Source of the DNA: an uncultured Gammaproteobacteria bacterium
GTDB lineage: Bacteria > Pseudomonadota > Gammaproteobacteria > JAADHQ01
Direction of reading: 5' to 3'
Assembly (NCBI GenBank): GCA_947258655.1
Contig: CAMYJD010000005.1
Coordinates: 62,001-126,000, forward strand
DNA length: 64,000 bases
This document shows, in pieces, positions 17,367 through 40,807 of the stretch (position 1 is its first letter; every line of letters starts with the position of its first letter). Position numbers and translations under genes: made by a program. The notes under the pieces were generated by a model that saw nothing but the letters and a program-made list of their open reading frames with translations, ran no database searches and had not been told where the DNA came from.

Positions 17367-18467
17367 ATGATAATCGACACCTCCAACGCCAATATCCTGA
17401 TCATTGACGATCAGGAAATAAACGTCAGACTGCTGGAAAGAATCCTGGCGCAGGCAGGATACAGCAACTTGACTGGCATAACTGATCCACGTGAAGTGGA
17501 AGCGCTGTGCGCGAAGCAACAATTTGACCTGATTCTGCTTGATATTCGCATGCCCCATATGGATGGTTTCGATGTACTGGAACAGCTCAAGAACATACCC
17601 ACTGAGTCATATGTCCCGGTACTGATACTGACAGCGCAGAATGACCAGGACACCAAACTACGCGCACTCCAATTGGGCGCCAAGGATTTCTTGACCAAGC
17701 CATTCGATCAGACCGAGGTATTATTACGCATCAATAACCTGCTTGAAGTCCGCCTGATGCACGAGCAACAACGCAATATCAACAAGGTCCTCGATGACCG
17801 CGTGCGTGAACGAACGCAGGAGTTGCACGATACACGTCTCGAAGTTATCCGTCGCCTGGGACGCGCCGCTGAATTCCGTGACAACGAAACCGGCTATCAT
17901 ATTATTCGCATGAGCAAGTATTCACAGATCATTGCCAGCACCTTTGGACTTGGCGACGAGGAGGCCGACCTGATCCTGAATGCCAGCCCGATGCATGATA
18001 TTGGCAAGATCGGAATCCCTGACCAGATCCTGCTAAAACCCGGTAAGCTGGACAAGCAGGAATGGGAAATCATGAAAACCCATGCCGCTATCGGCGCCGA
18101 AATCCTGTCCGGTCATGACTCGGAACTGATGCTGATGGCGAGCGAGATTGCGCTGAACCATCATGAGAAGTTTGATGGCTCGGGTTATCCTAACGGCCTG
18201 GGAGGCACTGATATCCCTGTCTCGGCCAGAATTGTTGCGCTCAGTGATGTGTTTGATGCGTTGACCTCGGAGCGTCCCTATAAGAAAGCCTGGCCGGTCG
18301 AGGAAGCCGTCGCCGAGATCCGCAAATGCTCTGGACAGCATTTCGATCCGCAACTGGTCGAAGCCTTTGAACAAAGCTTGCCTGCGATCCTCGATGTGCG
18401 TAGCCGCTACCAGGAGAGCGCACAGGATTTCGATAAAAACACGTTCAAGGATTTCCTTCAGGGCTAA
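17367..18467 (+). CDS. response regulator with HD-GYP output (probable c-di-GMP phosphodiesterase)
   Basis: A 366-aa two-domain protein. The receiver domain (about 8-125) has the phospho-acceptor in [13 protein letters not shown]. After a helical linker (about 130-160) comes an HD-GYP domain with the catalytic HD in [11 protein letters not shown] and the signature [14 protein letters not shown], so metal ligands look intact. The family hydrolyses cyclic di-GMP. Phosphorylation of the receiver would control that activity. No partner kinase is adjacent. The start has AGAAGG about six bases upstream. A palindrome sits 43 bp downstream. Confidence 0.93.
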
Positions 18468-23085: not shown

Positions 23086-24561
23086 TCACGCCTGATGAAT
23101 CGGCAGATTAAAACGAAACTCCGTACCCTGATTAATTCTGCTGAATGCCTGGATAGTACTGCCATGCAATTCCAGGATGCGTTTAGTGATGGCCAGGCCC
23201 AGGCCAGCGCCGCCACTGCTCTGCTGACGACTTTTTTCCGGGCGGTAAAAGCGCTCGAATATCAACGGCAATTCCTTCTCGGCGATACCGCAGCCGTTGT
23301 CCCTGACCTGCACCGTCACCGCACCATCCGTGCGTGTCAGAATAATATCGATGCGGCCATCGTCGGGGGTATAACGGATGGCATTTTCGAGCAGGTTCTG
23401 GATAACGCGCTCGATTAAACCGAGATCGGCATGCACAAATGGCAGCGATTCATCGAACCTGGTCGCGACACTGATATTCCTTTTACTGGTCATGAGCCAG
23501 TACTTGTGGATTACATCGTGCACCAGTTCCGGCAAGGAAAAGGCCTCGCACTTCGGTCGGGTTTCATTGGCATCAAGGCGCGCGAGTTCGAACAGTTCCG
23601 ACACCAGGTTTGCGAGGCGCTGACTGTGCTGTAATGCGGTCTTTATATAGCGCTTCTTATCCGTCTCGTTTAATTCATCACTCTTGCGTAAAATAGTTTC
23701 CAGATAACCCTGCAAGGTCGTTAACGGAGTACGCAAATCATGCGATACATTGGCAATCAGCTCGCGTCTTTGTACATCTGATTGTTTCAGTTTATTTAAT
23801 TGCCTGACTATGGTATTTGCCATTTCATAAAACGAATAGGTCAGATCATCTATTTCGTCCGACGACCTGTCATGACGGATTTGTGAATCTGAAATCTTAC
23901 TGAAACCGGATTGCTTGAACTGTTCAATCTTTTCAGACAGCGTACTCAGCCTTCTGGTCATATACCTGAATACCATCAGCGCCAGCAATAGCGACATAGC
24001 CAGCACAATGATTATTACCCATGTGCTGGTGTTAATTATATAGCTGTTCATCAGGTGCGAAACCACACTGCTGAATCTTTCTCCTGCAAGAATAATATAC
24101 AGATATCCCCGAGTCTTACCACTCTGAATCAACGGGACGACAGAGAAAATCTTGTTATTATTGATATCACGCGGGTCTGAGCCCTCTATCGGAAATCCAC
24201 GTTGTCCCTGGATAAAATCCTTGACTGGCTGCAGATCAATATGAGTGCGCACAATACTTTCATCGGGCGCATTGTAACCAATGATCTTGCCCTCGCCATC
24301 GATTGAATACAGCTCTATCGCCGGATTAATCTGCATGAAGGCATGAAACAGATCCTGCAACCTGTCTTCATAGACCATACCGTTTTCGAAGATCTTGTAT
24401 TCCCGGGCAATATGCGCGGCCAGGTCCTTGTTCAGTTTCTGTTGCGTCTCCAGCTGGTACAGATGATTACTGTACAGATGCAGGAACAACAACAAGGCCG
24501 CCAATAGCGAGAACAGCGCAAACAGCGTTAGCGCCAGTTTTGAGTACAGGCTTTTAAACAT
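23086..24561 (-). CDS. two-component sensor histidine kinase
   Basis: A 491-aa membrane kinase: TM1 at about 9-29, a periplasmic sensor of about 147 residues, TM2 at about 177-199, HAMP (200-260), HisKA with phospho-His274 in NVSHDLRTPL and HATPase_c (LLENAIRYTPDDGRI, DNGCGIAEKELP, GGAGLGLAITKRI). All ATP-binding boxes are intact. The periplasmic part has a YSIDGEGKIIGY strand typical of PAS/Cache-like sensors. The ligand is unknown. It lies 15 bp after its response regulator gene, so the two form an operon. The spondin gene follows. Confidence 0.93.
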   Translation of the reverse strand: MFKSLYSKLALTLFALFSLLAALLLFLHLYSNHLYQLETQQKLNKDLAAHIAREYKIFENGMVYEDRLQDLFHAFMQINPAIELYSIDGEGKIIGYNAPDESIVRTHIDLQPVKDFIQGQRGFPIEGSDPRDINNNKIFSVVPLIQSGKTRGYLYIILAGERFSSVVSHLMNSYIINTSTWVIIIVLAMSLLLALMVFRYMTRRLSTLSEKIEQFKQSGFSKISDSQIRHDRSSDEIDDLTYSFYEMANTIVRQLNKLKQSDVQRRELIANVSHDLRTPLTTLQGYLETILRKSDELNETDKKRYIKTALQHSQRLANLVSELFELARLDANETRPKCEAFSLPELVHDVIHKYWLMTSKRNISVATRFDESLPFVHADLGLIERVIQNLLENAIRYTPDDGRIDIILTRTDGAVTVQVRDNGCGIAEKELPLIFERFYRPEKSRQQSSGGAGLGLAITKRILELHGSTIQAFSRINQGTEFRFNLPIHQA

Positions 24562-24576
24562 GCTCGGCTATGACAC

Positions 24577-25290
24577 TCATGAAGGATGTTCGTGAAATTT
24601 ATAACCAACACCCCACACGGTCAAAACATATTCGGGATTGGCCGGATCGGTTTCGATTTTTGCGCGCAGGCGGTTAATATGTGAGTTAACGGTATGTTCA
24701 TAGCCGTCGTGACCATAGCCCCAAATCTGATCGAGTAATTGCGGGCGGCTGTACACGCGCCCTGGATTGCGGGCAAAGTGAACCAGTAAATCAAATTCCC
24801 TCGCGGTCAGATCGACGACCTCACCTTTGATCGCTACCTTGCGTTTTTCTATATCTATATCCATCAGACCCATACTGATCCTGTGCCCGTCGTCATCATC
24901 CCTGGACGAAACCGGAGCCACCAGATCGAGACGCCTGAATATAGCCTTCACTCGCGCCAGCAGTTCACGGATGCTGAAGGGCTTGGTAATATAATCATCG
25001 GCACCGATCTCAAGCCCCAGCACCCGGTCAAGTTCGGATGTCCTGGCCGTCAACATCAGAATAGGTATGAAGCCGTCCTGCTGCCTGATTTTGCGACATA
25101 CCTCGATGCCATCGAGCTGTGGCAACATCAAATCCAGAATGATCAGGTCGAATTCCTGCTCCAGCGCCAGACTCAAGCCCTGGCGACCGTCACTGGCCAC
25201 CTGTACATCACAGGCAATATCTCCCAGGTTCACCTCCAACAGGTGAGCTATATCAGCATTATCTTCTATAACGAGTACTTTCCGCCCCAT
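24577..25290 (-). CDS. OmpR-family response regulator
   Basis: A DNA-binding partner of the adjacent kinase: a receiver domain (LVIEDNADIAHLL, phospho-Asp in LIILDLMLPQLDG, KPFSIREL) and a C-terminal winged helix (VVDLTAREFDLLVHFARNPG, YEHTVNSHINRLRAKIE). From 25290 it is 237 aa, the family norm. An in-frame ATG at 25323 would add 11 residues, and neither has a strong ribosome site. First gene of the regulator-kinase pair. Confidence 0.93.
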   Translation of the reverse strand: MGRKVLVIEDNADIAHLLEVNLGDIACDVQVASDGRQGLSLALEQEFDLIILDLMLPQLDGIEVCRKIRQQDGFIPILMLTARTSELDRVLGLEIGADDYITKPFSIRELLARVKAIFRRLDLVAPVSSRDDDDGHRISMGLMDIDIEKRKVAIKGEVVDLTAREFDLLVHFARNPGRVYSRPQLLDQIWGYGHDGYEHTVNSHINRLRAKIETDPANPEYVLTVWGVGYKFHEHPS

Positions 25291-25428
25291 CGCAATAACA
25301 CCGTCCGCTAATAAATCATTCATGTCACGATGGTAACGCCGAAACCATCACGAAATCATCACAAATATTAGAAGAGACTATCCCCTGAAAGTTCCATTTT
25401 GACAGACAATCGGTCGTGCTGTGGGAAT

Positions 25429-28279: not shown

Positions 28280-28542
28280 GTTGGTTCTCCAAAAAAGTTG
28301 TATTTCGTAACCATCTGTTTTATTTACATAAAAAAGGCACGTGCCGGGATATCCGGAGTGCCAGACGGGCCCTAACGATTATCGCTAAGTGTATGCCCTG
28401 ACATGCAGCCATTTCAAAGTGGGCCAATGTTAGCGGATTTTTACACTGACGGGTAGATCAAGTGCACAGATTTGGCCCAAACAACGGTGGTTTCACAGGT
28501 TTTGCCATGTTAATCTCGCCATACAGCACCAGGAGGTGTCCA

Positions 28543-29151
28543 TTGGCGGAATTTAAACACCAGATACTACGCACCGAAGCTTCGGGCATGCCACTGGAGT
28601 GGATCAGCTACCAGGATGCGGCCCGTCTGTATTATCTCGGCCATGTCGCCTACAGTTGCGGCAGCAAACTCTATACCCTGCATGGCGGCATTAATGCTGC
28701 CAGCGGACGCACCAGCACACTTGAAATCAACTCCATTATTGCCACACATGGCAACAGTAAAGCCATACACAAGGCGCGGCTTTTTTATCATACACCGCTA
28801 AATAACCCGGCCCTGTTCAAACGTGATGCCTACCTGTGTATGTACTGTGGCGGTCATTTTGCGCACAGACATCTTTCCCGTGACCATGTTACGCCGCTTA
28901 GCCAGGGTGGTCAGAATGACTGGAACAACGTCGTGACTGCCTGTATACGCTGCAATAACCACAAGGCCGGCATGACCCCCGAACAGGCGGATATGCAATT
29001 GCTGGCAATACCGTTCACACCAACCTATGCCGAGTACATCTACCTGCAAGGTCGTTCAGTACTGGCCGACCAGATGGAGTTCCTGCGCGCGCATTTTCCG
29101 CGTAACAGCCCGTTCTGCAGCTATCAAATTTTGCTGCTTAATATACTTTAG
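28543..29151 (+). CDS. HNH endonuclease family protein
   Basis: A 202-aa protein whose C-terminal half is an HNH nuclease: CMYCGGHFAHRHLSRDHVTP, SQGGQNDWNNVVTACIRCNN, HKAG. The two CxxC pairs bind zinc and the His-Asn-His set is complete. A textbook AGGAGG at 28531-28536 lies six bases before a TTG codon at 28543, so I take this as the start. An upstream in-frame GTG (28462) would add 27 residues. The N-terminal half (WISYQDAARLYYLGHVAYSCG) is unassigned. It has no partner gene, so housekeeping DNA repair or a lone nuclease are both possible. Confidence 0.87.
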   Translation: MAEFKHQILRTEASGMPLEWISYQDAARLYYLGHVAYSCGSKLYTLHGGINAASGRTSTLEINSIIATHGNSKAIHKARLFYHTPLNNPALFKRDAYLCMYCGGHFAHRHLSRDHVTPLSQGGQNDWNNVVTACIRCNNHKAGMTPEQADMQLLAIPFTPTYAEYIYLQGRSVLADQMEFLRAHFPRNSPFCSYQILLLNIL

Positions 29152-29227: not shown

Positions 29228-31264
29228 ATGTCTACGATGCCTTATAAATTTCAAACACCTGTTACGCTACTACTGATTCCAGTCCTGAATTTCATACCTG
29301 TCTCCGAGGCCCGCGAGCAGCAGAATATAGGGCAACTGCTGCAGTTATCGATCGAGGATTTAATCAATCTACCCATTACATCGACCAGTTATTTTAATGA
29401 AGACAGCATCAGCGTCGGTTCTACAGTCAGCATCATTTCTACACAGGACTGGCAACAGCGCGGCGCCCGACGCACGCATGATGCATTGCTGGTGCAGCCC
29501 TCTGTAGCAATTTTCCCCAGTTTTCTTGGTCAATATTCCGTACGTATTCGTGGCTTTGCCCAGCCGGATGCCAGAGGTGTCGAAACCTTATGGGATGGTG
29601 TGCCACTGTCTTCATTCAATCTAGGCACGGCTGATATCAACCGTCCCAATATCCACCTCAACACGTTGAACAATATTGAAGTAACACGCAGCCCTGGTTC
29701 AGCATTTTACGGTACCGGTGCATTCCATGGCGTTGTTGCATTGAACGCTTTCGAGTCTGATTACGATACCACCCATGCAACGATCGGAGCGGCCACAAAC
29801 GGTTACTATAGCAGTGCTGTACAGGTAAGCCGCGCCATCGGCAAACACCATCGCTTAAACTTTGCCCTCGGTGGTAATGGCCAGAACGACCAGGATATGC
29901 GCTACATTTACACCGATCCCGGCAGTGGCCTGACTGCCAGCTCCGAGCGCAGATATCAATACGATACACAAACAGCTGTATTGAAATTCAACTCCGACCC
30001 AAAACAGGATCTGTCATATAAACTGGGCCTGTATTATGACAATAACGATCAGGATGGCTTTCATGGCCAAGGGCTTGAAACAGTGGCCACCGACGAGTCT
30101 GAAGTCGATAGTGACATCGGCATTGCCAAATTCAGCATCAAACAAAAGCTTGATGCCGACAGTTCTATCGAAGCGGTAACCTACCACTGGCAACAAAGAC
30201 ATAACTTTGCCTTCCCGCTCGCCAATGGCAATAACATCAGCATTGCATCTAAAGAGAAGCGCACCGGCGCTGACCTGATATTTCGCAAACAGAACCTCTT
30301 TAACAACACCCAGCTAAGTATGGCACTGGGCTATCGACGTGAAAAGATACCCGATTCACAACGCACGGTCAGGAATCCGTCAGGCGCAGTACTGGTGAAT
30401 GCAGACCAACCGTTTAAAGGTGGCAACAGAACCATCCACAGCTTCCTGTTTGATAACAATACGAATTTAATGAATGACAAGCTGATCCTACGCTATGGCC
30501 TGCGCTATGACGACTATAGTGATGTTGGCAGCCAGACCACACCCCGCCTGGGCATCATCTATGCATTGGATAACAATCATGCGGTCAAGCTACTTTATGG
30601 TAATGCATTCCGTGCACCGACTGTTGTCGAGAAAACTGGCAATCCGAGAATAAACAGTGATCCGAATATCCAACCCGAGACCATTGATACCTATGAACTT
30701 GTGTATTTACAGCAGGCGCGCAATAGCATGACCGAAGTAGTATTCTTCACATCGAAATGGAAGGATTCGATCATTGCAGCCGACACCGATAATGATACCG
30801 TGGCAGATCTGTTTACCAATAGTGGGGACAATCATTCCAGGGGTATAGAAATATCGCATCAAGCTGATATCAACAATTGGCAACTGAGACTGAGTGGCTC
30901 ATATGTCAGGAGCAAGAACAAAAGCACTAACGAAGAGTACGCTACATTCCCGCAATATATTTTCAATATTGGTACAGGCTACCGCTTCGATGACAGCCTA
31001 TCCATGTATGTCAATAACCGCATTCATCTACAGGCCGACAACAGACCTGCAGAAGGAACATTGACCGCCAACGAACTTCGCGATTATTGGCGCACCGACC
31101 TGAATGTATCAAAAGCATTCAATAGAAATCTGACGCTGTATGCCAACATACGCAATCTGTTTGACCGTGAAAATTTCCTACCCAGCATGGAGGATATGGA
31201 GTATGGTATACAGGATGAAGAAATCAGCTTCGAGCTGGGTCTGAGATACAGGTTTGACAATTGA
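29228..31264 (+). CDS. TonB-dependent outer-membrane receptor
   Basis: A 678-aa receptor: a signal peptide (ends VSEA), a short LLQLSIEDLINLPITSTS segment, a plug domain (about 60-175; VRIRGFAQPDARGVETLWDG, NNIEVTRSPGSAFYGTGAF) and a 22-strand barrel. It ends in FELGLRYRFDN with the expected terminal aromatic motif. The transported ligand is not evident; no siderophore or vitamin genes are nearby. AAGGAC precedes the start. It lies 52 bp upstream of yfiR-like and kinase genes on the same strand, an arrangement that suggests signalling linked to the receptor or the outer membrane. Confidence 0.92.
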   Translation: MSTMPYKFQTPVTLLLIPVLNFIPVSEAREQQNIGQLLQLSIEDLINLPITSTSYFNEDSISVGSTVSIISTQDWQQRGARRTHDALLVQPSVAIFPSFLGQYSVRIRGFAQPDARGVETLWDGVPLSSFNLGTADINRPNIHLNTLNNIEVTRSPGSAFYGTGAFHGVVALNAFESDYDTTHATIGAATNGYYSSAVQVSRAIGKHHRLNFALGGNGQNDQDMRYIYTDPGSGLTASSERRYQYDTQTAVLKFNSDPKQDLSYKLGLYYDNNDQDGFHGQGLETVATDESEVDSDIGIAKFSIKQKLDADSSIEAVTYHWQQRHNFAFPLANGNNISIASKEKRTGADLIFRKQNLFNNTQLSMALGYRREKIPDSQRTVRNPSGAVLVNADQPFKGGNRTIHSFLFDNNTNLMNDKLILRYGLRYDDYSDVGSQTTPRLGIIYALDNNHAVKLLYGNAFRAPTVVEKTGNPRINSDPNIQPETIDTYELVYLQQARNSMTEVVFFTSKWKDSIIAADTDNDTVADLFTNSGDNHSRGIEISHQADINNWQLRLSGSYVRSKNKSTNEEYATFPQYIFNIGTGYRFDDSLSMYVNNRIHLQADNRPAEGTLTANELRDYWRTDLNVSKAFNRNLTLYANIRNLFDRENFLPSMEDMEYGIQDEEISFELGLRYRFDN

Positions 31265-31316
31265 ATCAAGACGGCCGAATATCATCAGATACAAATTACC
31301 TGATTGACGTCAGTTT

Positions 31317-31886
31317 ATGAAGCATTTCCGCCATAGCTATCTTACCTGGCTAATATTCGCCTGGGTTACGATTTTACACTGTCCGTCATCGCTGGCTGCC
31401 TCCAATGACCAGGAATACTCGATCAAAGCCGCCTTTATTGAAAAATTCACTCACTTTATTACCTGGCCACAGGATAAACACAGTACTGACAGCAGCAATA
31501 CATTTAATATCTGCGTACTGGGCAACAATCCCTTTGGTGACAAACTGGATACCCTCGCCAGATTAACAAAAATAAAAAAACTACCAGTAAAGATTTACTA
31601 CCTTAACCACGATGACGATATCTCATATTGCGACATAGCCTTCATTACCAGGCTGCCTGCAAACCAAATTAACGCCATCACTCACAAGGCCAGGGATTCT
31701 TCAGTTCTAACTATTGCAGATACACCCGGCTATGGCGAACAAGGTGTAATTATCAATTTTTATTCAAAAGAACAATTTCTCGGCTTTGAAATCAACAGGA
31801 TTGAATCTGACCTTGCGCGCTTCAGAATATCCAGCAGACTCCTGAAACTTGCAAATATAATCGAAACACATGGAGGCACTCCATGA
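31317..31886 (+). CDS. YfiR-family (DUF4154) periplasmic protein
   Basis: A 189-aa exported protein: a signal peptide (ends SSLAA), then the YfiR core EYSIKAAFIEKFTHFITWPQ, FNICVLGNNPFGDKLDTLA, FITRLPANQINA, SVLTIADTPGYGEQGVIINF and FEINRIESDLARFRISSRLL. In Pseudomonas, YfiR represses the diguanylate cyclase YfiN in the periplasm. Here the next gene (overlap 4 bp) encodes a histidine kinase, so YfiR would control kinase activity instead (inference). No GGDEF gene or YfiB-like lipoprotein gene is adjacent. Confidence 0.9.
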   Translation: MKHFRHSYLTWLIFAWVTILHCPSSLAASNDQEYSIKAAFIEKFTHFITWPQDKHSTDSSNTFNICVLGNNPFGDKLDTLARLTKIKKLPVKIYYLNHDDDISYCDIAFITRLPANQINAITHKARDSSVLTIADTPGYGEQGVIINFYSKEQFLGFEINRIESDLARFRISSRLLKLANIIETHGGTP

Positions 31887-33370
31887 TATCGCCGACAAAT
31901 TTATCTATAAAGACCAAGCTGATCCTGATTATCACAAGTGTGTCGCTGGTTACATTATCCCTGGTACTTATACTTTATGCCTACGGAGAAACGCGTCACC
32001 TCATAAAATCACTCGAGGAAGAGATCGCCCATATTGCACGAATAACGGGCGATTACGCCACCACTGACCTGACCTTCAAGGATAAACAGGCAGCCACAAA
32101 GACATTACAATTACTACAATCTACGCCGAATATTATCCAGGCCGCTCTATATGATGCAGACAATACATTGTTTGCATCCTATGGCAAGGGTAGTCCTTAT
32201 CAATTAATCAACAAGGGTCATCAGGTCGAAGTGATCAAGCGCACTGAATCAACCCTGATTGTTCACAAAAAAATCCACCATCAGAATGAATTCATTGGTT
32301 CGATCCTTATTGAAGTCTCCACCCGCGAACTGCAGGGTGAGATTTTTGACTTTATCCTACTTACATTCCTTATCCTGACAGTCATGACCATTTTCTCCGC
32401 GATCCTGGCCCATTACTCCCAGCGTATTATCTCAAAACCGATTCTCGATCTATCAGAAAAAATCAAACAGGTAAAGGAAAGCGGTGATTACTCTATTACG
32501 GCAAAAAAACACAGCGAAGATGAAATAGGCAAATTATCGGAGAATATAAATTTACTATTGGCCAGTCTGGAGATAAGAAAGAAACAACGTGACCGCGCCG
32601 AGCACGAGCTACAGCAGGCAAAGAACATACTGGAAAGAAGCGTCTATGAGCGCACAAAGGAACTTGAAGTCGCCAACAGTGAACTGCAGACATTCAGTTA
32701 TACAGTCTCCCACGACCTGCGTGCGCCCTTGCGCAGCATAGACGGATTCAGCAAAATGCTGTTGGACGAGTACGATGACAGACTTGATGCTGCAGGTCGC
32801 GACTACCTTAAACGTGTGCGCAATGCCACCGTACGAATGGGCGACCTCATTGACGACCTATTATTGCTGGCACGAATTTCTCAGAGTGAATTAAGGCATG
32901 AAGATTTTGATGTAACCCAGACATGTCACACTATCGTCAATCGCCTGCGCGCATTGGAAAATGAACAGCGCAACATCGAAGTCAGCATAGAAGACAACAT
33001 GCATGTCTGTGCTGACAAGAAAATGATGACGATTGCCCTCGAGAATCTTATCTCCAATGCCTTGAAATATACACGCCGGGAAAAACATGCTGTCATCACC
33101 ATTAGCTCGGAATTACATAAGGGTGCGCGCAGCATTTGCATTAAAGACAACGGCGCCGGTTTCGACATGGTCAGTGCCGACAAGCTGTTTACACCATTAC
33201 AACGCCTGCACTCTCCCAGCGAGTTCGAGGGTACGGGTATTGGACTGGCTACCGTATACAGGATTGTCCGTAAACACGATGCATCAATAAAGGGGGAAGG
33301 TGCACCAAACGAGGGAGCATGTTTCTGCATGACATTCCGCGACAAACCTTACGATTATGAATCGAAATAA
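31883..33370 (+). CDS. CHASE8-like/HAMP sensor histidine kinase, YfiR partner
   Basis: A 495-aa kinase: TM1 at 11-33, and a periplasmic region of about 120 residues resembling CHASE8 of YfiN (ARITGDYATTDLTFKD, TPNIIQAALYDADNTLFASY). TM2 is at 155-178 and HAMP at 179-231, followed by a coiled coil (232-268). HisKA has phospho-His277 in YTVSHDLRAPLRS, and HATPase_c has LISNALKYTRREK, DNGAGFDM and GTGIGLATVYRIV. There is no receiver and no GGDEF. The start overlaps yfiR by 4 bp. No response regulator gene is adjacent, so the target is elsewhere in the genome. A terminator-like hairpin lies 127 bp downstream. Confidence 0.88.
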   Translation: MISPTNLSIKTKLILIITSVSLVTLSLVLILYAYGETRHLIKSLEEEIAHIARITGDYATTDLTFKDKQAATKTLQLLQSTPNIIQAALYDADNTLFASYGKGSPYQLINKGHQVEVIKRTESTLIVHKKIHHQNEFIGSILIEVSTRELQGEIFDFILLTFLILTVMTIFSAILAHYSQRIISKPILDLSEKIKQVKESGDYSITAKKHSEDEIGKLSENINLLLASLEIRKKQRDRAEHELQQAKNILERSVYERTKELEVANSELQTFSYTVSHDLRAPLRSIDGFSKMLLDEYDDRLDAAGRDYLKRVRNATVRMGDLIDDLLLLARISQSELRHEDFDVTQTCHTIVNRLRALENEQRNIEVSIEDNMHVCADKKMMTIALENLISNALKYTRREKHAVITISSELHKGARSICIKDNGAGFDMVSADKLFTPLQRLHSPSEFEGTGIGLATVYRIVRKHDASIKGEGAPNEGACFCMTFRDKPYDYESK

Positions 33371-37220: not shown

Positions 37221-38588
37221 TCATGCCTGCTTGACGTCAATACCGAGAGCACGCAATTTCCTGTACAGGTTGGTTCGTTCCATGCCAACCAGTTTGGCCA
37301 GCTTACCGACACTACCGCCGCAAACCTGTAATTGATGAGTCAGGTATTCGCGCTCAAACTGCTCCCTGGCCTCGCGTAGCGGCAGGTCGATCGCACCACT
37401 CGGGATACCAGCGACACCCGCCTTGCTTTCTGTATGCGTGGACAGGCTGTTCTCGACTTCATCCAATCCGACATCTTCACCATTACCGAGTATCAGCAAG
37501 CGCTGAACAAGATTCTTCAGTTCCCTGATATTACCGGGCCATGTGTAATTTCTTAAACGGTTCTGGGCAGCCACAGAAAATCGACGATAGGGAAGATTTT
37601 CCTGGCTGACAAAGTGATCAACGTAAAAGGCCAGCAATTCCGGAATATCCTCAAGATGCTCACGCAACGGCGGAATGCGTAAAGGCACAACGTTCAGGTG
37701 ATAATATAAATCCTCACGAAAATTCCCCGTTTTGACTTCAATCTCCAGATCCTTGTGCGTAGAGGCATAAATACAGACATCAACCTTGACCGGATCGACA
37801 CCACCGACACGCATAAAACTTTGACCTTCAATGGCACTGTGCAGACGTGACTGTGTATCCATATCCATATCCGCAACCCCCTGTAAAAACAGGATACCGC
37901 CATTAGCCTGTTCGAGCCTGCCGTAATGCGTACTTTCACCTTCCTCGCTGCCGAACAATTCGACTTCGGAATTTTCCCTGGCGATACTGCCAACAGGCAT
38001 GGCCACGAATGGCCCTTCACTGCGGTTGCTGTTGCGATGCATATAACGCGCGAATAATTCCTTGCCACTGCCGGATTCACCTGTCAGTAACACCCATGTA
38101 TCATGCAATGCAATACGTTTGGCCTGTTCGCGCAACTGGCGCATTAATGCACTTTTCCCCATTGGCTCCAGCAAGGGCTGAATATGTTCGCGCAAGCCGA
38201 TGTTTTCCCTGCGCAGCTTGTCTGCCTCCAGCGCACGTTCAACAGTCAATAACAGCTTTGCCAGAGACAGCGGTTTTTCCAGGAAATCATAGGCACCGAG
38301 ACGGGTGGCCTCGACCGCGGTCTCGACCGTACCATGACCTGACATGACGATGACCGGAAAAGGCAATTCACCATTTTCCTTCCACTCCTTTAATAACGTA
38401 ATACCATCCACGTCCGGCATCCAGATGTCTAACAACACCAGATCCGGGCGACGGTTTCGGCATTCCCGTCTGGCGGCCTCTCCGCCATCTGCGATATCCA
38501 CCTGAAAACCTTCATCTTCGAGGATTTCCTGAACCAGGTTACGAATATCAGGTTCATCGTCGACAACCAATATATAGGGAGCGGTCAT
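37221..38588 (-). CDS. ntrX: NtrX-like response regulator, AAA+ domain degenerate
   Basis: A 455-aa regulator: a receiver with phospho-Asp54 (LVLLDIWMPDVDG), an AAA+ domain (about 140-360) and a Fis-type helix-turn-helix (GSVGKLAKLVGMERTNLYRK). Walker A GESGSGKE (170-177) is intact. The sigma-54 loop GAFTGA is missing: ELFGSEEGESTHYGRLEQAN replaces it. The Walker B acids are replaced (LFLQGVADM for the usual LFLDE), and the second Arg finger is His297 (DLYYHLNV). It therefore probably does not open sigma-54 promoters. Start at 38588 (AGGA upstream), overlapping ntrY by 4 bp. Confidence 0.9.
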   Translation of the reverse strand: MTAPYILVVDDEPDIRNLVQEILEDEGFQVDIADGGEAARRECRNRRPDLVLLDIWMPDVDGITLLKEWKENGELPFPVIVMSGHGTVETAVEATRLGAYDFLEKPLSLAKLLLTVERALEADKLRRENIGLREHIQPLLEPMGKSALMRQLREQAKRIALHDTWVLLTGESGSGKELFARYMHRNSNRSEGPFVAMPVGSIARENSEVELFGSEEGESTHYGRLEQANGGILFLQGVADMDMDTQSRLHSAIEGQSFMRVGGVDPVKVDVCIYASTHKDLEIEVKTGNFREDLYYHLNVVPLRIPPLREHLEDIPELLAFYVDHFVSQENLPYRRFSVAAQNRLRNYTWPGNIRELKNLVQRLLILGNGEDVGLDEVENSLSTHTESKAGVAGIPSGAIDLPLREAREQFEREYLTHQLQVCGGSVGKLAKLVGMERTNLYRKLRALGIDVKQA

Positions 38589-40807
38589 GTATTTTTCCTG
38601 GAGCTGGCCAGCATCTGCCCACGCCCCTCGCTTGCGTTCATTGTTGTAATAACAGGTAATCGAATAGTAATAACTGCACCCAGATCTGGCAAGTTCTCTG
38701 CGGTTACCATGCCGCCATGCTCCTCGACTATTTTCTTCACAATTGCCAGCCCCAGACCGGTACCCTTGCTCTTGGTCGTGATATAGGGTTCGAAATAATG
38801 CCCCATCGCCTGTTCCGGAAATCCGTGCCCGTAGTCGCGGACACCCAGTTCGACAAAACGACATCCCGCTTCATCCATACAACGCGTCGCAATATCGATT
38901 CTCTTTGACTGACTTCCTTCCATGGCCTCGAGTGCATTCTTGATCAGGTTATGCAATAACTGGCGCAAACGTGCGCCATCGGCCTCTATCAGCGGGCTGC
39001 GTTCATCGAGTTGGCGCTTCAGTTTCAGTTCTGGCATCTTGTACATTTCGGTGACTTCATAGACCAGATTGTTCAGGTCAATGCGCTGCAGGTCCATGGC
39101 CGGGGCACGCGCATATTCGGTAAATGCATTGACCATTTCCTTCATTGCCTCTACCTGCTGGACGATTGTTTCGGTTGAACGGGTCAACATACTTGCATCT
39201 TCTGCATTCATTTTATTCTGAAACTTGAACTGCAAGCGCTCGGCCGATAGCTGGATAGGTGTCAGTGGGTTCTTTATTTCATGCGCGAGGCGACGTGCCA
39301 CCTCGCCCCAGGCAGCATCCCGTTGTGCCTGCACCAGCGCGGTAATATCATCAAAGACAATAACATGGTCACCACTCTGGTCTTGCTCATCGACCAGTGT
39401 CGTTCCCCTGCACATCAGCACCTTCCTGCCCGCCTGCGAAAACAGCACAATTTCCTCTTGCCAGTGCTCCTGACGAATCGATAGCGGCTTCAGGATCGTT
39501 ACAAAACGTTGCAATGGCTCATGCGCCAACGCAATCGCATCAATCGGTTGATCGATATAGGTTTGCAGATCCAGGCCGAGTATCTTGCTGGCCACCGGAT
39601 TGACCGTGCGTATATTCAATTCGTGGTCCAGTGTCATGACGCCGGAAGACAGATTACCGAGGATCGCTTGCAGATAGGCACGCTGTGACTCGACCTGCTG
39701 CTGGCTATCCTGGGCCTGCATACGCGCCTGCGCGATCCGACGCGTCATATCATTGAATGACTGCACCAGAAACCCCAGTTCATTATTACCGACGACGGGC
39801 AATTGCTTGTCATAATCACCTTCGGCCACAGCCTGGGTGCCTTCGGCCAGGTCCCTGACCGGAGCCATCAGTCGTTGCGCCGAGAAAAAGGCCACCCACA
39901 CTGCCGAGAACAAGCTTAGCAACAACACCATCGACAGTGTCAGCAGAAAGCTTTTTTTCAATTGTCCGCGCAAATAATTAAGCTTTTTATAAACGGTAAA
40001 GTAGTTTTGCACGCTGCCGGCCAGTGTATTCAGGCGCTGATCGATTGGAAACAATGCCTGTAAGATACGTAATTCTGTAGCTGCCGTATTACCTGCGGGA
40101 ATCGGAAACACCAGGCGCACATGGATTCCACTGTCTTTGACCGGCTCGAGACCCACATAGTGGCTACCCTGCCTGGCCTGCATCAATACATCTTCATCAC
40201 TGCGATGCGGAACCACCTTACCGGGATCGGCACTACTGAACGCGATAATGCGGTTGTTCTTGCCGAGCAGACTCAACTCCACGGCACCGGTACGTTCGAG
40301 TAGGTCACTCAACACCAGGCCAGCATTGGAGTCGGTAACATCCAGCAGCGTGCTGGCTACCGACGGTATCTGTTTGACCAGTTCCCTCTGCCTCAGATCC
40401 AGGGAAACCTGGCTCAACTGCAATGCATCCTCGAGCGATTTCTCGATGCGCACATCGAACCAGCTGTCAACACCGCGTTGCAGGAATTGCAGTGAGAAAT
40501 AATAGACAATGGTCACCGGGATCACGGACAGGACAACAAAAACAATGACCAGGCGCACGGTCAGGCGCGATCCCGCCACACCTGCCCTGTATTGATTGAC
40601 CAGTTTGAACAGGTTCGCACCGATCATGCTCACAAGAACCAGCAGACCGGCCAGATTAACCAGTATCATCCAGCCATATTGATTACTGAAGCGGGCAGCA
40701 TTCTCGGTAGCATTGCTAAGCACATACAGGGAAACCAGCAGGATCAGCAGCAAACCGACCATCGGTACCAGCACACCTGCCCAGCTACGTCCTACTCGAT
40801 TTCCCAT
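38585..40807 (-). CDS. ntrY: NtrY-like sensor histidine kinase
   Basis: A 740-aa membrane kinase. Two or three N-terminal TM helices (GVLVPMVGLLLILLVSLYVL, GWMILVNLAGLLVLVSMIG, LVIVFVVLSVIPVTIVYYF) precede a periplasmic region and a further TM near residue 290. HAMP, PAS (about 380-480) and HisKA with ARRLAHEIKNPLTPIQLSAE follow, then HATPase_c (HNLIKNALEAM, GTGLGLAIVKKI). It pairs with NtrX by a 4-bp overlap. The NtrYX role in nitrogen or redox control is known from other proteobacteria; the signal here is unknown. Confidence 0.94.
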   Translation of the reverse strand: MGNRVGRSWAGVLVPMVGLLLILLVSLYVLSNATENAARFSNQYGWMILVNLAGLLVLVSMIGANLFKLVNQYRAGVAGSRLTVRLVIVFVVLSVIPVTIVYYFSLQFLQRGVDSWFDVRIEKSLEDALQLSQVSLDLRQRELVKQIPSVASTLLDVTDSNAGLVLSDLLERTGAVELSLLGKNNRIIAFSSADPGKVVPHRSDEDVLMQARQGSHYVGLEPVKDSGIHVRLVFPIPAGNTAATELRILQALFPIDQRLNTLAGSVQNYFTVYKKLNYLRGQLKKSFLLTLSMVLLLSLFSAVWVAFFSAQRLMAPVRDLAEGTQAVAEGDYDKQLPVVGNNELGFLVQSFNDMTRRIAQARMQAQDSQQQVESQRAYLQAILGNLSSGVMTLDHELNIRTVNPVASKILGLDLQTYIDQPIDAIALAHEPLQRFVTILKPLSIRQEHWQEEIVLFSQAGRKVLMCRGTTLVDEQDQSGDHVIVFDDITALVQAQRDAAWGEVARRLAHEIKNPLTPIQLSAERLQFKFQNKMNAEDASMLTRSTETIVQQVEAMKEMVNAFTEYARAPAMDLQRIDLNNLVYEVTEMYKMPELKLKRQLDERSPLIEADGARLRQLLHNLIKNALEAMEGSQSKRIDIATRCMDEAGCRFVELGVRDYGHGFPEQAMGHYFEPYITTKSKGTGLGLAIVKKIVEEHGGMVTAENLPDLGAVITIRLPVITTMNASEGRGQMLASSRKNT

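Follow-up and report, generated by a model that had tools for sequence, protein, structure and literature searches.

Within the 64,000-nucleotide stretch of contig CAMYJD010000005.1 from an uncultured Gammaproteobacteria bacterium (hereafter, the window), we examined a tight operon of three genes on the forward (+) strand, whose open reading frames (ORFs) lie exactly where the initial annotation had placed them, and which together constitute a real membrane-signaling cassette. In order, these encode a TonB-dependent receptor (TBDR; 678 residues, 29228–31264), proposed here as the outer-membrane input, a YfiR/HmsC-like periplasmic protein (189 residues, 31317–31886), and a membrane sensor histidine kinase (495 residues, 31883–33370). 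The latter two genes are joined by the sequence ATGA (31883–31886), in which the yfiR stop codon overlaps the kinase start codon by 4 bp. YfiR modules control biofilm-related cyclic di-GMP (c-di-GMP) in Pseudomonas and its relatives, where YfiB is the presumed sensor. This OmpA-like lipoprotein is encoded neither within the cassette nor directly beside it, no genome-wide search for it having been made.

According to Pfam, the kinase consists of a transmembrane (TM) helix, a CHASE8 domain (residues 43–143), a second TM helix, and then HAMP (181–230), HisKA (268–334, containing His277), and HATPase_c (379–487) domains, with neither a GGDEF nor a receiver domain. The earlier suggestion that the periplasmic region resembles CHASE8 was borne out by a match to the Pfam profile (PF17152) of 53.7 bits against a cut-off of 27 (E-value 2.6e-14), and likewise the cytoplasmic output is HAMP/HisKA/HATPase and not GGDEF, as had been thought. 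Thus, with a periplasmic CHASE8 domain set between two TM helices and followed by HAMP, this is a CHASE8 sensor protein, and the sequence motifs expected of a functional histidine kinase (the SHDLR H-box with His277, NLISNALK, DNGAGFD, and GTGIGL) are all intact. In the predicted structure of the sensor (pLDDT 92), long membrane helices flank a PAS-like domain, which is nearest to the sensor domains of the WalK, CitA, and LapD types, with these Foldseek and VIA-align matches being evidence of fold only. As for the YfiR protein, it belongs to the YfiR/HmsC-like family (PF13689; 126 bits versus a cut-off of 24.9), and its predicted structure (pLDDT 90) has Pseudomonas aeruginosa YfiR (PDB ID: 4zhu) as the best match in the PDB (TM-score 0.84 by target, E-value 6e-9). 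In the TBDR, the Plug (55.3 bits) and TonB_dep_Rec β-barrel (117 bits) domains were recognized, but no STN signaling domain was found by Pfam at an E-value of 1 or below, and so a FecA-type signaling receptor was rejected.

The YfiR-binding site of YfiN was mapped to an AAVVF motif in which Phe70 is central (Malone et al., 2012; PMC3375315). Here, the equivalent residue of the window kinase is Phe65 (codon at 32075–32077), which was aligned to Phe70 by its A-A-x-x-F motif context, YfiN itself being outside the alignment. This position is invariant as phenylalanine in 70 of 70 aligned sensors that are paired with a YfiR. In a wider set, phenylalanine occurs in 81 of 82 paired and 15 of 31 unpaired sensors as first counted, and in 89 of 90 versus 7 of 23 (p = 3.5e-13) once the eight "unpaired" sensors whose cluster does contain a YfiR match are reassigned. 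Hence, the proposal that the periplasmic domain is the target of YfiR gains from the fact that the phenylalanine needed in YfiN is kept. Moreover, the distances among YfiRs and among their sensors correlate (rho = 0.51, reached in 0 of 500 permutations), although such mirror-tree correlation is also expected from co-inheritance in an operon. Taken as the wider YfiR–CHASE8 module (Malone et al., 2012), the cassette has YfiR, synteny with a CHASE8 gene, and the conserved hydrophobic contact phenylalanine.

For the survey of yfiR neighborhoods, 369 genomes of the class were searched with PF13689 and NF053592 and the surroundings annotated with locally built profiles, which gave 86 yfiR genes with readable neighborhoods; owing to our own profiles and to some ORFs missed by the gene caller, the counts are approximate. 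A CHASE8 gene adjoins 57 of these 86 yfiR genes, and a TBDR gene is the immediate same-strand neighbor within 500 bp of 49, and because of these two counts the TBDR/YfiR/CHASE8 arrangement is far beyond chance. Among the 57 CHASE8 neighbors are 38 kinases (11 plain and 27 hybrid), 17 GGDEF or GGDEF-EAL proteins, and 2 without an assigned output. These figures suggest that, among broadly sampled Gammaproteobacteria, cassettes with a kinase outnumber those with GGDEF and that yfiR usually has a TBDR as its neighbor. The triple was expected to co-occur in relatives, and it does recur in Gammaproteobacteria as well as in other phyla, with a single scan of named genomes finding it in records of Calditrichota, Zixibacteria, Bacteroidota, Verrucomicrobiota, and Campylobacterota. 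The closest cassette (L116/L170) is that of the gammaproteobacterial metagenome-assembled genome HyVt-414, with identities of 54% for the TBDR, 41% for YfiR, and 54% for the kinase core. On the cassette tree, parsimony places seven changes between kinase and GGDEF outputs, of which just two are forced by well-supported branches. In three genomes, YfiR and the kinase are fused naturally into a single protein of 864–906 residues (confirmed by Pfam), in the order YfiR, (coiled coil), TM helix, histidine kinase, and receiver (L236:5042–7636, L237:4409–7129, and L238:179–2884).

It could still be that the operon arrangement is incidental and that YfiR does not regulate the window kinase, as might be thought from the yfiR–TBDR pairs that exist without a CHASE8 gene. 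We regard this as very improbable in view of the 4-bp overlap, the frequency of CHASE8 adjacency, the three YfiR–kinase fusions, the conserved Phe65, and the correlated divergence of YfiR and sensor. Several side observations belong to this survey. The fusion gene at L238 is followed by genes for a REC-GGDEF-EAL protein and a TBDR. TBDR–YfiR pairs with no adjoining CHASE8 gene are found at L033, L036, L038, L231, L235, L239, L240, and L253, and their transducer, if any, must be encoded elsewhere. At L248, L250, and L252, yfiR comes after a histidine kinase gene without CHASE8; in L248, the one checked, the sensor domain is DAHL.

Ahead of the plug, at residues 40–52 of the TBDR, lies a lead-in, LSIEDLINLPITS, which had been noticed earlier and proved typical of YfiR-linked receptors. 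In five-fold held-out scoring, the motif exceeds 10 bits in 49 of 53 YfiR-adjacent TBDRs (24.7 for the window receptor) versus 4 of 49 control TBDRs, the controls being mostly BtuB-like and at least two of the four control matches falling in the plug. The two other plug-bearing receptors in the window's genome are without it. We suggest, then, that the TBDR may act as a sensor feeding YfiR. In an alternative explanation, the TBDR is a transporter that is merely co-expressed with, or a target of, the YfiR–kinase pair, and YfiR itself senses either a ligand or some periplasmic condition, for instance thiol redox by means of its Cys66/Cys105 pair. Here, Cys66 and Cys105 of the window YfiR align with P. 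aeruginosa Cys71 and Cys110, a pair that forms or breaks with redox (PMC4655355), and both equivalents are present in 47 of 70 YfiRs, though counterparts of Cys145 and Cys152 are absent from the window protein. Moreover, the YfiR fold is similar to that of small substrate-binding proteins, and many yfiR–CHASE8 pairs have no adjacent TBDR. However, TBDR adjacency is found alike in kinase, GGDEF, and output-less cassettes, including the TBDR–YfiR pairs without CHASE8, and a special periplasmic N-terminus is common to the YfiR-linked TBDRs. We hold the transporter explanation to be somewhat unlikely. If the receptor is the sensor, as we prefer, this would be a route from a nutrient receptor to the cytoplasm other than FecA/FecR-type signaling, and one testable with three genes.

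Concerning the output, the remark that no response regulator gene lies nearby holds for the adjacent genes, as the next one downstream encodes a methyltransferase on the opposite strand, but not for the window, in which three receiver proteins are encoded: a REC-HD-GYP protein (17367–18467), an OmpR-type regulator (24577–25323), and an NtrX-type regulator (37221–38864). As the main partner candidate, the OmpR-type regulator about 4 kb upstream was rejected because its own kinase gene adjoins it (23086–24561), and NtrX because it adjoins its own NtrY-like kinase gene (38585–40807). In the survey, a receiver is encoded by the next gene after 16 of 36 kinase cassettes versus 0 of 16 GGDEF cassettes (p = 0.0009, uncorrected for kinship), and since several of these receivers are REC-GGDEF-EAL proteins, kinase cassettes often return to c-di-GMP. 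For this reason, and given the candidate output in trans in the window's genome, it is doubtful that phosphotransfer replaces c-di-GMP here, as the initial annotation had proposed.

Neither the window kinase nor that of the closest relative (the L116 cassette) has an adjacent receiver gene. The window kinase core falls in a subfamily with those of L116 (54% identity) and L110 (47%), and the L110 cassette carries its output in cis, in the order TBDR, YfiR, CHASE8 kinase, REC (151 residues), and REC-GAF-PAS-GGDEF-EAL. The best match of the L110 REC in the window's genome (59% identity) is a 146-residue single-domain receiver (C33:32369, in G000:C33; hereafter, the C33 receiver) beside a REC-GGDEF-EAL gene, at a locus with the order phosphonate-binding-like protein, kinase, kinase, REC, and REC-GGDEF-EAL. 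Likewise, the genome of L116 (G187) encodes in trans a receiver 69% identical to that of C33, also beside a REC-GGDEF-EAL gene. Among the 369 genomes, this receiver type is present in 70 of 75 with the kinase subfamily versus 31 of 294 without it (p = 2.6e-44, uncorrected for kinship), a co-occurrence that applies at the level of the subfamily only, and of 55 close receivers, 31 have a kinase of that subfamily no more than 500 bp away. At positions +7, +11, and +12 from the histidine, which lie in the dimerization domain and classically govern specificity in EnvZ-type kinases, the window kinase shares Arg, Gly, and Phe with the two kinases of C33 and those of L110, L116, and L029, and the two other window kinases have different residues there; this motif is conserved across the subfamily, and hence is weak evidence for C33 as the partner. 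Combined, the cis and trans receivers give a concrete prediction for the partner of an orphan kinase.

Alternatively, YfiR might control the kinase, with the kinase acting on another regulator, which could be the orphan REC-HD-GYP protein, a second single-domain receiver (C59), or a transcriptional regulator. The gene for the REC-HD-GYP protein is 11 kb from the kinase gene, its motifs are intact, and no kinase gene adjoins it, but none of the cassettes examined was identified with a REC-HD-GYP alongside. The C59 receiver is 46% identical to the L110 receiver and is followed by REC-GGDEF-EAL, and some relatives (L029 and L032) have single receivers without an adjoining GGDEF partner; C59, however, has its own kinase, and the subfamily-level association favors the C33 type of receiver. 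We therefore view a different target as rather unlikely.

Taking the above together, we give a probability of about one half to the reading in which the three genes form one envelope-signaling module under YfiR control, with the TBDR as input, a receiver in trans, and c-di-GMP as output. Mechanistically, periplasmic YfiR would bind the CHASE8 domain of the kinase around Phe65 and hold it in one state, which we expect to be kinase-off. An occupied or energized TBDR, standing in for YfiB, would then alter the availability of YfiR by way of its conserved N-terminal periplasmic lead-in. The freed kinase would phosphorylate a response regulator in trans, most likely the C33 receiver, and, given the REC-GGDEF-EAL protein encoded beside it, the signal may still end in c-di-GMP. 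Weighing against this module, besides the co-inheritance noted for the correlated distances, are that many yfiR genes have no adjacent TBDR, that, with mostly BtuB-like controls, the lead-in might be a trait of one TBDR subfamily and not a site where YfiR is contacted, that there are more than twice as many kinases of the subfamily as receivers, that the C33 receiver is already adjoined by two kinases and may not serve the window kinase, and that a same-genus genome keeps a C33-type receiver without a YfiR cassette. Of all this, the sequence itself shows the domains, the layout of the operon, the conserved contact residue for YfiR, the conservation of the cassette, and the co-occurrence of the kinase subfamily with the C33 type of receiver; direct binding, the sign of control, the sensor role of the TBDR, the receiver used in trans, and c-di-GMP as the end point are inferred. 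In a broader and more speculative version, which we hold only tentatively, TBDRs whose periplasmic N-terminus is of the LSLEEL type would be widespread outer-membrane sensors that capture or release YfiR and so drive exchangeable inner-membrane outputs (kinase, hybrid kinase, or GGDEF-EAL), with several orphan same-subfamily kinases of the window's genome converging on one c-di-GMP hub in trans.

Among known systems, YfiBNR (TpbB/YfiN, YfiR, and YfiB) of P. aeruginosa is similar in that a YfiR-fold protein is encoded with a membrane protein bearing CHASE8 (a periplasmic PAS) and HAMP, and in that the phenylalanine of AAVVF and the Cys71/Cys110 pair are conserved in the window proteins. Differently, the window output is a histidine kinase rather than GGDEF, a TBDR gene takes the place of YfiB, and the window YfiR, without Cys145 and Cys152, scores 32.3 bits against the cut-off of 85 for the YfiR equivalog (NF053586). 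In the strict sense, then, the cassette is not a YfiBNR system, as GGDEF output, YfiB in the operon, and the YfiR equivalog are all missing. The kinase output was already reported in 2012, with the consulted portion of that article describing distant Yfi operons that mostly lack yfiB and in which GGDEF-EAL, HPT, or sensor histidine kinases stand in place of GGDEF, though naming no TonB receptor or downstream regulator (Malone et al., 2012; PMC3375315). Moreover, NCBIfam has consecutive models for the same gene content (NF053590, TOL_0244 TBDR; NF053591, TOL_0243 YfiR-like; NF053592, YfiR-associated kinase), each of which is matched by a window protein, but with scores under the curated cut-offs throughout (81 versus 645 bits for the TBDR, 105 versus 125 for YfiR, and 144 versus 194 for the kinase), so by those cut-offs the cassette falls outside these families. 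There is also a likeness to modules of a single-domain (Rcp1-like) receiver and REC-GGDEF-EAL, in that the window kinase core is of the co-occurring subfamily; these genes are in trans here and in cis in L110, and unlike there, they are not adjacent to the window cassette. Judging by titles and abstracts, none of the five articles in the collection searched that mention both YfiR and TonB concerns a link between YfiR and a TonB receptor. The window locus is therefore not new in kind, and what it adds is a testable idea of the input and a concrete prediction of the output.

Some further features of the genome touch on its signaling proteins. The orphan REC-HD-GYP protein (366 residues, 17367–18467, + strand) has HDIGK and a further motif intact, and probably acts as a receiver-controlled c-di-GMP phosphodiesterase. 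The genome encodes six kinases belonging to one subfamily (including those at L165, L196, L197, L198, and window 31883–33370), four of them without an adjoining receiver, versus one close single-domain receiver, which makes a many-to-one hub possible. Other transducers with a periplasmic sensor, most of them CHASE8-like and with kinase or GGDEF-EAL output, are found at L165:2175–5729, L167:5488–8816, L168:5373–8770, and L198:2258–4973. The genes preceding them encode a PhnD-like phosphonate-binding protein or, in L168 and in L129:6199–9842 from a relative, a rhodanese-domain protein, as if each such transducer had its own periplasmic accessory protein.

As regards the substrate of the TBDR, none of the best NCBIfam scores (hemin, siderophore, and B12 models) comes near its cut-off, and an Rfam scan of the window gave no riboswitch or known RNA above the gathering scores that might suggest one. 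Around the cassette, promoter matches fail to exceed those of shuffled sequences. The G+C content of the cassette is among the lowest in the window (0.419 for yfiR, 0.453 for the kinase gene, and 0.472 for the TBDR gene, with a mean of 0.521), and the cassette was not found in the same-genus genomes searched; from both facts, its composition and distribution are consistent with gain by transfer. Just upstream, a same-strand gene for an HNH endonuclease (28462–29151, +) ends 76 bp before the TBDR start.

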